Positions 46,991-52,742 of a stretch of DNA of 64,000 nt are shown here, one piece after another. Source of the DNA: Verrucomicrobiales bacterium (GTDB taxonomy: Bacteria; Verrucomicrobiota; Verrucomicrobiia; Verrucomicrobiales; DEV007); assembly GCA_029233965.1 (NCBI GenBank), contig JARGOP010000004.1:41218-105217 (forward strand), in the 5' to 3' direction. The notes under the pieces were generated by a model. It was not told where the DNA came from. It saw only the letters and a program-made list of their open reading frames with translations, and ran no database searches. The position numbers were made by a program, and so were the translations under genes. Every line of letters begins with the position of its first letter. Within the stretch, counting starts at the first letter, position 1.

Positions 46991-47866
46991 CTAGGCGGCT
47001 CTTTTCCTCGCGAATTCACAAAACCGGCTCGCAACTGAGGAAGCGGGAAGGTCCGACGAAGTGACAAGTCTGATTCCCTTTTTCAGCCGGACTCCCCGGA
47101 GAGAGATTTCGCAAAGTGAGCCGAGGAGCAGTTCCTCCCGCACCGCCCCTTTGAGGACGAGGGATACCCCGAGACCCGCCTTGACCCCTTCCTTGACTGC
47201 CTCCGTCGAACCGAGCGTTTGTGAAATCGTCAGACTCGCGGCAAGATCCCCGAGAAATTCGCTGAGGATGCGCCCCGTCCCCGTTCCTTTTTCCCCTCCG
47301 AGAATCTTCTCTTCGACGAGGGCTTCCGGCCGAATCGTCTTCCGGCCCGCCCAGCGATGTTCCGGCCCGACGATGAGGACGACGGGTTCCTCCCTCCAGA
47401 GGAGATTCCTGAATTTCCCGCTCCGGTCCTCCTCGTCGTTCCACCACTCCATCGCTGCGACATCGATCTCACCGCTCTGAAGCTTCCCCGCGATCGCCGG
47501 ATTCGTGTCGATGAAGATACTCCCGGAGACGTCCGCTTCGCCGAGAAACCGGCTGAAGACGGGCTGAATCAAATACGTGCCCACATTGGAGGAGGCACCG
47601 ACACGAAGCCGTGACTGATCGAGACTTCGCTGCGCGAGTTCCGCCAGCTCGATCAAACTCCTCGCATGGCGTACGAATTCTTCAGCCCGCTCCGCGACTT
47701 CGCAGCGAACCGTTCCCCGCTCAATGAGGCGGGAGCCAAGAGACTCCTCCAGCTTGCGGACATGCTGGGAAACCGCCGGTTGGGTTACTCCGAGCCTCTT
47801 CGAAGCGGCCGCGAAGCTACCGGTATCGATGACGGCGAGGAGACTTTTTACTTGGGTCAGGTTCAT
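46991..47866 (-). CDS. ptxE: LysR-type regulator of the phosphite operon
   Basis: The 291-residue protein has the LysR winged helix-turn-helix (TGSFAAASKRLGVTQPAVSQHVRKLEESLG) and the effector domain with RLRVGASSNVGTYLIQPVFSRFLGEADV. It is the last gene of the ptx cluster and overlaps ptxD by 4 bp (ATGA), so it is translated with it. In the classical Pseudomonas stutzeri cluster the fifth gene ptxE also encodes a LysR regulator, whose exact role is unsettled. The effector is presumably phosphite or a related signal (inference). Confidence 0.85.
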   Translation of the reverse strand: MNLTQVKSLLAVIDTGSFAAASKRLGVTQPAVSQHVRKLEESLGSRLIERGTVRCEVAERAEEFVRHARSLIELAELAQRSLDQSRLRVGASSNVGTYLIQPVFSRFLGEADVSGSIFIDTNPAIAGKLQSGEIDVAAMEWWNDEEDRSGKFRNLLWREEPVVLIVGPEHRWAGRKTIRPEALVEEKILGGEKGTGTGRILSEFLGDLAASLTISQTLGSTEAVKEGVKAGLGVSLVLKGAVREELLLGSLCEISLRGVRLKKGIRLVTSSDLPASSVASRFCEFARKRAA

Positions 47867-48888
47867 TCGAAAGCGGATGGATTCAGGGCGTGTTCGGGGA
47901 TCTGCCCCGCAAAAAAGGATTTCAACTGCTGAGCGGCCTCCATCGCAATGTGTTTTCTCACTTCCTCGACGGCAGAACCAAGGTGAGGAGTGAAAAAAGT
48001 CTGCTCCCTGTTTTCGAGAAGCCGGGCCGGAATCTTTCGGGGTCGGTCAGGGAGAGCCCAGTCCTCCAGTTCGAAGACGTCGGCCGCGTAGGCTCCGAGG
48101 TGTCCTCGCTCCAAAGAATCGGCCACCGCTTCTTCGTCGACGACTGAACCGCGACAGACGTTGACGAGGATGGCCCCCGGCTTCATTCGTTCCAGAAACC
48201 GGGCATCCACAAGATGTCTCGTTTCATCGTTGAGAGGAAGGAAAAGGGCGATCACATCCGCATTCGCGAGGATCTCGTCGAGCCCGAGCAGGGAGATCTT
48301 CAAGTCGTCGAGGAGATCCTCCGCGACCGGATTTTCGTCCGTGGCGATCAAGCGACAGTCAAACCCGCTGAGACGACGGGCAAAGGCTTTGCCGACCGCT
48401 CCCAACCCGACAAGTCCGACCGTTTTTCCAGCGAGACCGAAGCCATAGAAAATCGGTCGCCACCCCCGGAACGCACCGCTTCGAATATGGTGGTCGCCCG
48501 GCACGCATTTCCTCGCCACCCCGAGAAGAAGCGCCACCGCGAGTTCGGCGGTGGGGATCGTGAGGAGGTCAGGGACATTGGTGAAAAGCACTCCCGAATC
48601 GGTGCAGGCCCCGACGTCGAAATTGTCATACCCTTTCAACGCCCCGGCGATGATCCTGAGATTGGGACATTGATCGAGAAAGGCCTGATCAACCGTATCG
48701 GGCATGAACACCATGAGACCATCAGCCCTCCTGCAGTTCGCCATGAGGGTTTCCAACGGCCAGGAATCCCGGGTTTCGTTGAGGATCGGGTCGCAGAAAT
48801 CTTCGAGAAAGCTCACGACCTCCGGATGAATCCAATGGGTGACGACGAGATTCGGTTTCTTTGAAATCATAGGCACCGGACGGCTCAC
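47863..48888 (-). CDS. ptxD: NAD-dependent phosphite dehydrogenase
   Basis: The protein oxidises phosphite to phosphate with NAD+. Counting from GTG 48888 (which overlaps the ptxC stop as GTGA; ATG 48870 is the alternative), the segments GALKGYDNFDV, VPDLLTIPTAELAV, AFRGWRPIFYGFGL and DVFELEDWA match PtxD closely. Known catalytic residues of the P. stutzeri enzyme (Lys76, Arg237, Glu266, His292) map to K85, R246, E275 and H302. Pocket residues Met53, Trp134, Tyr139 and Ser295 map to M62, W143, Y148 and S305. The Rossmann motif is GLGAVG, and an acidic residue (D184) at the end of the second strand favours NAD over NADP. The length is as expected. Confidence 0.95.
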   Translation of the reverse strand: MSRPVPMISKKPNLVVTHWIHPEVVSFLEDFCDPILNETRDSWPLETLMANCRRADGLMVFMPDTVDQAFLDQCPNLRIIAGALKGYDNFDVGACTDSGVLFTNVPDLLTIPTAELAVALLLGVARKCVPGDHHIRSGAFRGWRPIFYGFGLAGKTVGLVGLGAVGKAFARRLSGFDCRLIATDENPVAEDLLDDLKISLLGLDEILANADVIALFLPLNDETRHLVDARFLERMKPGAILVNVCRGSVVDEEAVADSLERGHLGAYAADVFELEDWALPDRPRKIPARLLENREQTFFTPHLGSAVEEVRKHIAMEAAQQLKSFFAGQIPEHALNPSAFE

Positions 48889-49694
48889 TTAAACCGGCGA
48901 CGCAGTTGCGCACCGGTCGCGTCGACAATCATCACCATCGCCAGAATCACGAGGATGATCGCGAACATTTCATCGTATCGCAAAATTCTCAACGCGCCGA
49001 TGAGTTGGAATCCGATTCCCCCGGCACCGACGATCCCGAGAAGAGTCGAAGCCCTGAAGTTGTACTCCCACCGGTAGAACGCCGTATCTGCCATTTGAGG
49101 AATCACCTGCGGAAGGTAACCGTGAATGATCGTCTGAAGTCGGTTCGCGCCCGTACTTTCGACCGCCTCGACGGGTCGGGGATCGACATGCTCAATCGAC
49201 TCCGCGAAAAACTTCCCGACCATTCCTATCGAATGAATTCCGAGTGCGAGGGCGCCGGGAAGGGCTCCGAATCCGACGGCGGCCACGAGGACGATACCGA
49301 GGATGAGCTCCGGGACAGCGCGGGTGAGGCTTAAGATCGCTCTCGCAATCTGATAGACGACAGGATGAGGAGTCGTGTTCTGAGCCGCGCAGAATCCGAT
49401 CAGGACGGAAAAGACAAGAGCTAATGCGGTGCCGCCAATGCTCATCCCGAGCGTGTCGATGAGCGGTTTGACCCACTCCTTCCAGTTCGAAAAATCGGGC
49501 GGCAGCATCTCGAGGAAAAGACTGCCCATGTCAGGCAGCCCCTCCCAGAGACGTTTAAAATCAAAAAGGTCAACGTACCAAGCGGCCACGAGGACCGTGA
49601 TGAGAACCGCCCCCACTTCAACTGCGTTCCGCCGTCGCTGGCGGGACTCACCGTCGAGAATAGCTGCGTATTGAGGATCAGAGGCGGTCTCCAT
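48885..49694 (-). CDS. ptxC: Phosphite ABC transporter permease
   Basis: The 269-residue inner-membrane protein belongs to the PhnE/PtxC permease family. After a basic N-terminus it has about six helices, and the family's EAA loop for contact with the ATPase is EAVESTGANRLQTIIHGYLPQVIPQM. Family segments LTRAVPELILGIVLVAAVGFGALPGALAL and STLLGIVGAGGIGFQLIGAL are clear. It starts 32 bp after ptxB and its stop overlaps the ptxD start by 4 bp, so it is part of the operon. Confidence 0.9.
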   Translation of the reverse strand: METASDPQYAAILDGESRQRRRNAVEVGAVLITVLVAAWYVDLFDFKRLWEGLPDMGSLFLEMLPPDFSNWKEWVKPLIDTLGMSIGGTALALVFSVLIGFCAAQNTTPHPVVYQIARAILSLTRAVPELILGIVLVAAVGFGALPGALALGIHSIGMVGKFFAESIEHVDPRPVEAVESTGANRLQTIIHGYLPQVIPQMADTAFYRWEYNFRASTLLGIVGAGGIGFQLIGALRILRYDEMFAIILVILAMVMIVDATGAQLRRRFK

Positions 49695-49726
49695 GGGGTC
49701 TCAGCGTTCCGTGAAATAGGGGAATG

Positions 49727-50578
49727 TTAATCAAGGATCGAGGTGAGTTTTCTCACCTTCTCGTAGTCCTCGTCTTTTGCTTCCGCAAAACCGTCGGCCT
49801 TGAGCTTTCCGAGAATTTCCTCATCCTTGAGGTTGTAGAACGCGTTCCTGATTTTCTCCTTCAGTTCCGGCGCAAGGTATCCCTGCATCGTCCAGGGGTA
49901 GTTGGGATAGGCGGGAGAGACTTCGATCGCTTTGACCTTCGCGGGGTCAATCGTTCCCTTCGCCACAAGTGCCTCATAGATCGGCTGGCTCATGCCGCCG
50001 ACTTCTGCATTTCCGTTCTGGACGGCAAGCGCAACGGCGTCATGAGATCCCAGAAACTGCTCCGAGTAGTCCCGGCCCGCTTCGAGACCCCGGTCGATCA
50101 GGAGCGACTTGGGAATGAGATGGCTCGAAGTGGACGCCTGATCTCCGTAGGCCATCGTCTTCCCTTTCACATCCTCAGGTTTTTCAATGCCCGCCTCAAC
50201 GCTTCCGATGAAAACACTGTGGTAGGTCGGAGACCCGTCTTTCATCTGAGCCGCAAAAGGCTCCAGCTCCGGGCTTTTGTCTTTCGCAAGAACGTAGGAG
50301 AGTGGGCCGAAGTAGCCAAGTTCAAGCCGTCCACGGCGCATCGCTTCGATCATCGAGGAATAGTCCGTCGTCACGACGATTTCGACCTTTTTACCCAGTT
50401 CCGCTTCCAGGTAGTTTTTGAGGCCTTCGTTGGCTTTGATAATGGTCGAAGCATTCTCATCAGGGAGAAGGGCAACGCGGAGGGTATCAGGATCACTCTT
50501 TTCATCGGCATAGCCGGGAGCAATCAGGGTGAGTGCTGCAAAAAAGGCAGCGATCAGAGAGATGGTATTTTTCATCAT
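49727..50578 (-). CDS. ptxB: Periplasmic phosphite-binding protein
   Basis: The 283-residue protein has a signal peptide (KNTISLIAAFFAALTLIAPGYA) and is a PhnD-family substrate-binding protein: LRVALLPDENASTI, then RGRLELGYFGPLSYVLAKD and the anion-binding segment GDQASTSSHLIPKSLL. YFGPLSYV and the STSS turn are typical of the phosphite/phosphonate group. Its place between the ATPase and permease genes and next to ptxD supports phosphite as the ligand, though phosphonates cannot be excluded by sequence alone. ATG at 50578 or the adjacent ATG at 50575 is the start. Confidence 0.9.
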   Translation of the reverse strand: MMKNTISLIAAFFAALTLIAPGYADEKSDPDTLRVALLPDENASTIIKANEGLKNYLEAELGKKVEIVVTTDYSSMIEAMRRGRLELGYFGPLSYVLAKDKSPELEPFAAQMKDGSPTYHSVFIGSVEAGIEKPEDVKGKTMAYGDQASTSSHLIPKSLLIDRGLEAGRDYSEQFLGSHDAVALAVQNGNAEVGGMSQPIYEALVAKGTIDPAKVKAIEVSPAYPNYPWTMQGYLAPELKEKIRNAFYNLKDEEILGKLKADGFAEAKDEDYEKVRKLTSILD

Positions 50579-50631
50579 GAGTTCTTGTTAGGGTATTATG
50601 GTTGGGTTTCGTCGAAACGGGGAAGAAGGGA

Positions 50632-51477
50632 TCAGCGGACTGCGGCGAGGGCCGGGTCTTTCGTTGAGGAGGCATCAACTCCGGTTTTCCGGGAGTCGCT
50701 CTTTTCCACCGGTGTCTCTCCCTCGTAAATGGATGCAAGCGCGGCTTCGTTGAGTTGCTCCGGCGTGTCGTCAAAAACGATGCGGCCATGGGCGAGGGCC
50801 ACGATTCGATCTCCGAACTCCTTCGCAAACTCCACCTGGTGAAGACTGATCACGAGCGTGATGCCATCGCGGCGGCAGACATCGCGCAAGAGAGTGAGAA
50901 GCTGCCTGGAGGTTGCGGGATCGAGACTGGCGACCGGCTCGTCCGCCAGAATCAAGCCGGGCTCCATCGCGAGAGCACGGGCCACTCCGACCCGCTGCTG
51001 TTGGCCGCCGCTCAGCTGATCGACCCGCTGCAGGGCCTTGTCGAGCAGGCCGACGCGGTCGAGGCAGGAGAGCGCCTTTTCGCGGTCAGGGCGCGGAAGG
51101 GCAAAAAGAGATCGCAGGGTGGAAAATCGGGAAAGCCTCGCGGTCAGGACATTGGTCAGCGCGGTTTGTCTTCCGATCAGCTGATGCTGCTGAAAGACCA
51201 TCCCGGTGCGACGGCGGTGCTTTCGAATCTTTGAAACTCCTGACAAGTCTCCCAATACGGGACAGCTCACGGTTCCTTCGGTCGGACTGACGAGGAGATT
51301 CATGGCGCGGAGGAGGGTCGATTTTCCCGCTCCGGAACGACCCAGCAGGATTGTCACTTCCCCTTCGTGAATCTCAAGGTCTTGTGGAGAGAGCGCTTTG
51401 GTTCCCCCGGGATAGGTGACTCCCACTCCCGTGAGGCGGAGGATCGGTTCGGAAGAGGAAGGGACGGACTCATTCAT
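50632..51477 (-). CDS. ptxA: Phosphite ABC transporter ATPase
   Basis: The 281-residue ATPase has Walker [10 protein letters not shown] (46-54), Q-loop [20 protein letters not shown], the signature [16 protein letters not shown], Walker B LILADEP and the H-loop [13 protein letters not shown]. These match the PhnC/PtxA group. The C-terminal 30 residues ([26 protein letters not shown]) are an extra polar tail. It is the first gene of the operon. Its ATG directly abuts a 40-bp palindrome, leaving no recognisable Shine-Dalgarno sequence. No other start codon lies nearby, so it may be leaderless or translated through an unusual site. Confidence 0.9.
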
Positions 51478-51517
51478 AACGTTTCGTGATAGAAAATCGT
51501 TTTCTATCGCAAACGTT
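51478..51517. promoter_or_regulatory. Extended palindrome abutting the ptxA start codon
   Basis: The inner arms ATAGAAAA / TTTTCTAT flank TCG, and the outer arms AACGTTT / AAACGTT lie 3-4 bases further out. The 40-bp element ends exactly at the ptxA ATG. It is AT-rich in a GC-rich region and replaces the usual ribosome-binding site. It is a strong candidate operator for the phosphite operon, possibly for PtxE or a Pho-type regulator, or an RNA hairpin at the start of translation. It does not match the direct-repeat Pho box. Confidence 0.75.
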
Positions 51518-51555
51518 TATGGAGAACGCCCGAACCACCAGCGTTCCTTCGTTAA

Positions 51556-51587
51556 GAAATCTTCACCGCAAGCGCCGTGAAGATTTC
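51556..51587 (-). terminator. Perfect hairpin between the alcohol dehydrogenase and ptx operon
   Basis: GAAATCTTCAC and GTGAAGATTTC form a perfect 11-bp stem with a 10-base loop, starting 48 bases after the dehydrogenase stop. On the minus strand the stem ends in TTTCTTAACG, a weak U-tract. It probably terminates the dehydrogenase transcript and insulates the ptx promoter. Confidence 0.6.
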
Positions 51588-51634
51588 GTCACCTTCCTGT
51601 CGACGCCCTGATTCAACGTCTCGAAAAAACCCGG

Positions 51635-52645
51635 TCACTCAAAATCGTTCTGCAACACGATCCGGTGCGCAGGGCTCTCATCATGCAGCTTTTTCATCGC
51701 CTCATTGACCTCCGACATCGGCAGCACTTCCGTCTGTGGTGCAATGCCGTGACGGGCGGAGAAATCGAGCATCTTCTGCGTCGTGACCGGGCTCCCGAGC
51801 GGGGAAGCTCCGATCGATTTGTCTCCCGTGATGAGTGGGAACACCGCCGCACTGACACTCGGCGCGGCCCCGACGAGGTGTAGCTTTCCTTTAGGCCGCA
51901 GGGCCGCGACATACTTGTCCCAGTCGAGCTCGACATTCACGGTGACGAGGAGAAAATCGAAACTGTCCGCCGCCTTGTCGAGCGCATCCGGGTCTTTGGA
52001 GTTGATGAAATGATGAGCCCCGAAACCGCGGGCATGTTCCTCCTTATCCGGACTCGTCGAGAAGGCGGTGACCTCGCAGCCCCACTTATTGAGAAACTGC
52101 AGCGCCATGTGACCGAGGCCACCGATCCCGACGACACCAACGCGATCCGTTGGGGATACCTGATTCGTGACGATGGGGTTGAAGACGGTGATCCCTCCGC
52201 AGAAGAGCGGTCCGACTGCCGCCGCATCAAGCCCTTCCGGTAGCGCGGTGACCCAAAGCGCGTCCGCCCGGACCCGATCAGCAAAGCCTCCGTGACGTCC
52301 CACGATCGTCGATTCATTATTCGCGCAAAGGTTCTGATTTCCACCAAGGCACTGCTCGCATTTCCGGCAGGACTTGCTGTACCAGCCGAGACCGACTTTC
52401 TGCCCGACTTCGAGATGGGTCACGTTTTCTCCCTTTTCGGAAATGCGACCGGAGACCTCGTGACCGGGGACGAAAGGATACTGGCTTATCCCCCAATCGT
52501 TCGACCACATGCTGAGGTCGCTGTGGCAGATGCCGCAAAAATCGACCGCGATTTCCACTTCATCCGGCCCGAGCTCGCCGGGATCGTATTCAAAACGTTC
52601 CAGTTTTCCGTTCGATTCAGTGGCGGCGTAGGCTTGGATACTCAT
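51635..52645 (-). CDS. Zinc-dependent NAD(P) alcohol dehydrogenase (YahK/CAD-like)
   Basis: ATG 52645 (MSIQAYAATESNGKLE) gives 336 residues; the track adds 16. Catalytic zinc ligands are in DFCGICHSDLSMW and GHEVSGRI. The structural zinc loop is CRKCEQCLGGNQNLC (four Cys), and the Rossmann motif is GIGGLGHMALQFL. The arrangement matches the cinnamyl-alcohol/aldehyde reductase group (YahK-like), usually NADPH-dependent reduction of aldehydes in the cytosol. It lies upstream of the ptx operon on the same strand but is separated by a hairpin, so a phosphite-related role is unlikely. Confidence 0.85.
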   Translation of the reverse strand: MSIQAYAATESNGKLERFEYDPGELGPDEVEIAVDFCGICHSDLSMWSNDWGISQYPFVPGHEVSGRISEKGENVTHLEVGQKVGLGWYSKSCRKCEQCLGGNQNLCANNESTIVGRHGGFADRVRADALWVTALPEGLDAAAVGPLFCGGITVFNPIVTNQVSPTDRVGVVGIGGLGHMALQFLNKWGCEVTAFSTSPDKEEHARGFGAHHFINSKDPDALDKAADSFDFLLVTVNVELDWDKYVAALRPKGKLHLVGAAPSVSAAVFPLITGDKSIGASPLGSPVTTQKMLDFSARHGIAPQTEVLPMSEVNEAMKKLHDESPAHRIVLQNDFE

Positions 52646-52742
52646 GACTGAAGTTACGCCCGGGCTGGAGATCCGACATGGAAATCTCATCACAAAAAAA
52701 GGGAGTGAGCCGGTTTCAGGATTAGGCTAGAGTGTCTAAGAA

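Follow-up and report, generated by a model that had tools for sequence, protein, structure and literature searches.

In the transposase leaders of IS10 and IS50, hairpins that sequester the start codon or the ribosome-binding site silence read-through transcripts, and in leaders of the ompA type 5'-terminal stem-loops stabilise the mRNA. The ptx operon of P. stutzeri is reported as a member of the Pho regulon, according to White and Metcalf 2004 as cited in PMC5082522 and PMC4046663. The 64-kb stretch of DNA analysed here (hereafter the window, to which all coordinates refer) carries a complete ptxABCDE phosphite operon on its minus strand: ptxA (50632..51477; ABC transporter ATP-binding protein of the PhnC family, TIGR02315), ptxB (49727..50578; PhnD-type substrate-binding protein, TIGR01098), ptxC (48885..49694; permease of the PhnE family, TIGR01097), ptxD (47863..48888; phosphite dehydrogenase, PDB 6ih2, 1.1e-112) and, as last gene, ptxE (46991..47866; LysR-family regulator by family model match). 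The identification of ptxA in a preliminary description of this DNA was correct, as ptxD matches solved phosphite dehydrogenases (1e-112) and ptxA-C match the PhnC, PhnD-type and PhnE families. Upstream of ptxA lies a co-directional zinc-type alcohol dehydrogenase gene (51635..52693, minus strand), a possible source of read-through, whose stop is 158 nt from ptxA.

Orthologues were sought in the genus (34 genomes), in the family (75 genomes) and, by sampling, in the order and phylum, a search that yielded one close and two distant relatives. Among the 34 genus and 75 family genomes the operon was found in one further genome only, a Verrucomicrobiales MAG (L002), which is also where PtxC has its best database match, at 88% identity; L083 contains the identical sequence, and both count as one relative. 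PtxA-C of this relative are 74-88% identical to those of the window, and PtxE 63%. The operon (46991-51477) occurs in 2 of 34 genus genomes with different upstream neighbours, and its patchiness suggests horizontal transfer or repeated loss.

At 51478-51517 the plus strand reads AACGTTTCGTGATAGAAAATCGTTTTCTATCGCAAACGTT, which the preliminary description took for a 40-bp inverted repeat with AACGTTT arms stopping exactly at the ptxA ATG. An inverted repeat is indeed present, slightly longer than claimed (about 46 bases): because the symmetry continues through CATA...TATG, it spans 51475-51521 on the minus strand and includes the ATG (51477-51475), with arms of about 22 nt and a 3-nt loop (CATAAACGTTTGCGATAGAAAA-CGA-TTTTCTATCACGAAACGTTATG). 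The AACGTTT arms exist, but the outer AACGTTT and AAACGTT pair only at a one-base offset; furthermore, because AACGTT is self-complementary, part of the outer repeat can just as well be read as AAACGTT repeated directly at a distance of 34 bp. Within it lies a perfect 21-bp palindrome, GATAGAAAA-TCG-TTTTCTATC (51488..51508), which read as RNA forms a 9-bp stem and a triloop. The repeat as a whole takes in the start codon of ptxA, the first phosphite-uptake gene, together with what is probably the promoter edge. We tentatively favour, at somewhat below even probability, the reading that this palindrome acts as an RNA hairpin, specific to the lineage and placed where ptxA starts, with an effect set by the position at which transcription begins.

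With a score of 14.5 the repeat ranks first among the gapped inverted repeats of the whole window, against a top score of 13.5 in local dinucleotide shuffles (n=24). Its coding-strand RNA folds at -15.0 kcal/mol (z = -5.0), a stability reached by 0 of 200 shuffles and by none of 177 sampled segments whose GC content was similar or lower, and RNA of the opposite strand is more stable (-18.5 kcal/mol, z -6.7). At three or fewer mismatches the pattern occurs once in the 64-kb window (0 expected), and the inner palindrome is a single copy in the whole 4.83-Mb genome, also at three or fewer mismatches; having one genomic site at this threshold, it is no member of a MITE- or REP-like repeat family. 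In related genomes, the palindrome and a reversed-pattern control find matches at about equal frequency, that is, at chance level. A search of Rfam gave no match above the gathering score, only sub-threshold microRNA-like matches as for any AT-rich hairpin, and a Rho-independent terminator was rejected as no GC-rich stem followed by a U-run was found on either strand of the palindrome.

These figures bear on a sober alternative, namely that the element has no selected function and that, in this lineage alone, an AT-rich promoter leader became a near-perfect palindrome by drift or by a template switch. Although we rank it below the RNA hairpin, and regard it as doubtful in itself, it is nearly as likely. 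It fits with the single copy, and with a best shuffle barely under the observed score, which makes the window-wide surprise modest; less easily accommodated are the precise placement from the ATG to the -10, another strong repeat 30 bp upstream, and z values of about -5 to -6 in both repeats.

The start codon itself (51475..51477, minus strand), with ATGAATGA conserved in the close relative, was said to lack both a Shine-Dalgarno sequence and an alternative start nearby, and on both counts we agree: anti-SD pairing amounts to -0.1 kcal/mol, and there is no upstream in-frame ATG, GTG or TTG because 13 codons upstream the frame is closed by a TAA. Anti-SD pairing is weak or absent in many genes of this genome, among them ptxC, ptxD and ptxE, each at its first start; the missing Shine-Dalgarno at ptxA is not special, being common in this genome, and some Verrucomicrobia have been classed as SD-scarce (PMC10783764). 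The proposal that the palindrome is the core promoter of a leaderless ptxA mRNA draws on this lack, on the ATG at the element's edge and on a TATCAC 8 bases before the ATG. It is nevertheless weak, and we consider it highly improbable: the hexamer 12 to 7 bases before the ATG is TCACGA in both genomes with no sigma-70-like site, a better -10 (TATAAT in the close relative) lies about 45 bases upstream, and SD-less starts are common in the genome.

A search of related genomes, proposed earlier as a check, came out as in the first half of the refutation named in the preliminary description, as the palindrome is not conserved in the sole close relative with the operon. The two leaders align without gaps over about 120 bp upstream of ptxA and share GTGACGAAA (51584-51592), GGTnAnGATTTCTTAACnAAGG (51546-51567), ATAA (51517-51520) and TCACGAAnnnTTATGAATGA at the start codon. 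Start codon and spacing are kept, but the palindrome is gone, with 10/21 identical positions in the inner 21 bp, and the relative's leader does not fold (-2.9 kcal/mol, z +0.55). This absence from the only close relative, despite the ungapped alignment, is what a functionless palindrome would lead one to expect. In the distant verrucomicrobial operons (L116 and L117) the 260 bp preceding ptxA contain no 6-bp dyad, and no comparable hairpin was found. Both of these leaders carry TTCACACAAAnGAACGnTAT, placed some 45-65 bases ahead of ptxA, and a strong Shine-Dalgarno is missing in both. A single candidate for an upstream ORF coupled to ptxA was seen in the window and rejected, since a stop interrupts its counterpart in the close relative. 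Given its absence from the nearest relative, the palindrome is at most a local control hairpin, and it may also be functionless.

The same comparison weighs on the idea, advanced in the preliminary description, of an operator of the phosphite operon, which is unsupported as a general feature because the close relative keeps start codon and spacing without the palindrome. In this reading, a dimeric repressor sitting over the transcription start would bind GATAGAAAA-TCG-TTTTCTATC, or else the pair of AACGTT sites, and block ptx transcription. The core is perfectly two-fold symmetric and near the predicted start, and proteobacterial ptx leaders likewise have a dyad between promoter and start codon. 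However, the element is missing in a relative that retains ptxE (63% identical), there is no second genomic copy within 3 mismatches, and matches in related genomes are at chance level only; we hold such an operator to be unlikely. A LacI-type operator, considered for AAACGTTT, was discarded as the operon contains no such regulator; this arm has further sites in the genome only once 2 mismatches are allowed (forward 13 and reverse 21, vs 11 and 11 for the control).

More specifically, the palindrome might be the recognition site of PtxE, whose gene closes the operon, and candidate PtxE dyads elsewhere are similarly placed before ptxA. This version of the operator fails at the T-N11-A pattern of LysR-type regulators and has very little probability: the palindrome is GAT-N15-ATC, with G where T is needed six bases off centre, the best T-N11-A dyad of the window leader pairs 4/6, and the palindrome is not conserved in the close relative. 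The leaders compared were 38 dereplicated ptx leaders whose loci include ptxE-like genes. Of the 38, 16 carry GAT-N11-ATC (shuffles expect 0.83, maximum 4) and 8 carry ATTG-N7-CAAT; most of these dyads lie 30-50 bases ahead of the start, on the downstream side of Pho-box-like repeats, and carriers from other phyla include L014, L016, L018, L034, L037, L061, L062 and L071. These dyads are candidates for the PtxE operator of the LysR T-N11-A type; they are absent from the leaders of the window and its close relative, and the literature searched held no description of a PtxE target site. The leader comparison yields in this way a candidate operator for the LysR regulator PtxE.

Turning to the promoter, alignment with the relative points to a candidate -10 element, CATAAA (51516..51521, minus strand), a weak hexamer (4/6) which reads TATAAT at equal spacing in that genome, and from which the RNA is predicted to start near 51508-51510. 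Neither a -35 element nor a sigma-70-like site was found for the ptxA promoter. Further upstream, the conserved block GGTnAnGATTTCTTAACnAAGG (51546..51567, minus strand) is Pho-box-like, with two 5-mers 11 bp apart. The pstS leaders of the window's genome and of its close relative (L092 and L094) share a Pho-box-like block (TTGTGACAAGATTGATAC and GTGTGACAGGATTGAAAC) about 115 bases before pstS, which in both consists of two 5-mers 11 bp apart and is possibly the Pho box of the genus. The ptx block has a similar layout, GTCAC-GATTTC-TTAAC in the close relative and GTGAA-GATTTC-TTAAC in the window, and is tentatively regarded as a Pho box, although the roughly 29 nt that separate it from the -10-like site are more than is usual. 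The preliminary description was right that the palindrome is no Pho box, for its repeats are inverted rather than 11-bp direct repeats, and the block at 51546-51567 is the better candidate.

The arms of the repeat reach from the -10-like hexamer to the AUG, and computed folds differ with the point at which the RNA begins. Full-length RNA over the repeat, begun at or upstream of 51521, folds at about -16 kcal/mol with the AUG 12% unpaired (range 3-12%), so that the start codon pairs within a stable, better-than-chance hairpin. RNA computed from 51508-51510 has no outer stem, carries the 9-bp hairpin at most 2 bases from its 5' end and leaves the AUG about 68% unpaired. With only two orthologous leaders for comparison, the one close orthologue giving no conserved or covarying pairing, there is no evidence of covariation. 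We propose that the -10-like site, TATAAT in the relative, serves the operon promoter and that the RNA would start inside the palindrome; mRNA made from this promoter could then be translated, and its 5' end would perhaps be protected. Read-through RNA from the dehydrogenase gene would instead fold, bury the AUG and be poorly translated, and it is the conserved upstream block, rather than the palindrome, that would confer regulation by phosphate.

About 30 bp upstream of the ptxA palindrome lies a second strong inverted repeat, GAAATCTTCACGGC-GCTT-GCGGTGAAGATTTC (about 51550..51593, minus strand; 51546-51597 in the window-wide scoring), which with a score of 11.5 is the runner-up of the whole 64-kb window, so that its top two inverted repeats both sit between the dehydrogenase gene and ptxA. 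Its RNA folds at -20.2 kcal/mol (z -5.6), compared with -9.3 kcal/mol (z -1.1) for the weak counterpart in the close relative, where the outer bases are nonetheless conserved. It was rejected as a canonical terminator, being without a U-run.

The start-site RNA hairpin, one of the readings in the preliminary description, survives and is tentatively the preferred one. It is favoured by the strength and improbability of the repeat; by the accessibility of the AUG, which depends on the start (0.12 to about 0.68); by the conserved ATAA of the -10-like element at ungapped spacing, with TATAAT in the relative; and by the location of the window's two top repeats between the dehydrogenase gene and ptxA. 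Moreover, both are absent or weak in the close relative, where the gene upstream of ptxA is a divergent ZIP transporter gene instead of the co-directional dehydrogenase, and read-through is not expected. The one-base arm offset, tolerable in a hairpin but breaking DNA symmetry, favours RNA over a DNA dyad. Against the hairpin stand the greater stability of its antisense-strand counterpart (-18.5 vs -15.0), unlike the expectation from selection on the mRNA; the weak CATAAA with no -35 found; and an orientation correlation that comes from one genome pair, with two distant ptx operons free of a comparable hairpin. Going further, the palindrome could be promoter edge and RNA gate at once, insulating a sparse, perhaps horizontally acquired operon from its upstream neighbour, an extension that we put forward as improbable. 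If functional, the element would show how a sparse operon behind a co-directional gene escapes read-through expression by an insertion-sequence trick; if functionless, it cautions that a striking start-codon palindrome may belong to one lineage alone.

Set beside the described systems, the palindrome resembles LysR boxes (T-N11-A) in being a dyad close to the promoter of an operon that includes a LysR gene, but its spacing is N15 and T-N11-A does not hold. As in P. stutzeri, there is a ptxABCDE operon, here with a Pho-box-like block upstream; unlike a Pho box, the palindrome is not a direct repeat and lies downstream of that block. If the RNA starts at 51508-51510, it would share with the ompA type a stem (9 bp) at most 2 bases from the 5' end and, after it, a linker that is single-stranded, although here the linker to the AUG is only about 10 nt, there is no conservation, and the ptxA start is a predicted one. 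In contrast to IS10 and IS50, the repeat is situated in a metabolic operon and not at a transposon end, occurs in one of two known orthologues and is known here from sequence; like their leader hairpins, however, it spans the start codon, and folding over it is open only to RNA whose start lies upstream of the repeat.
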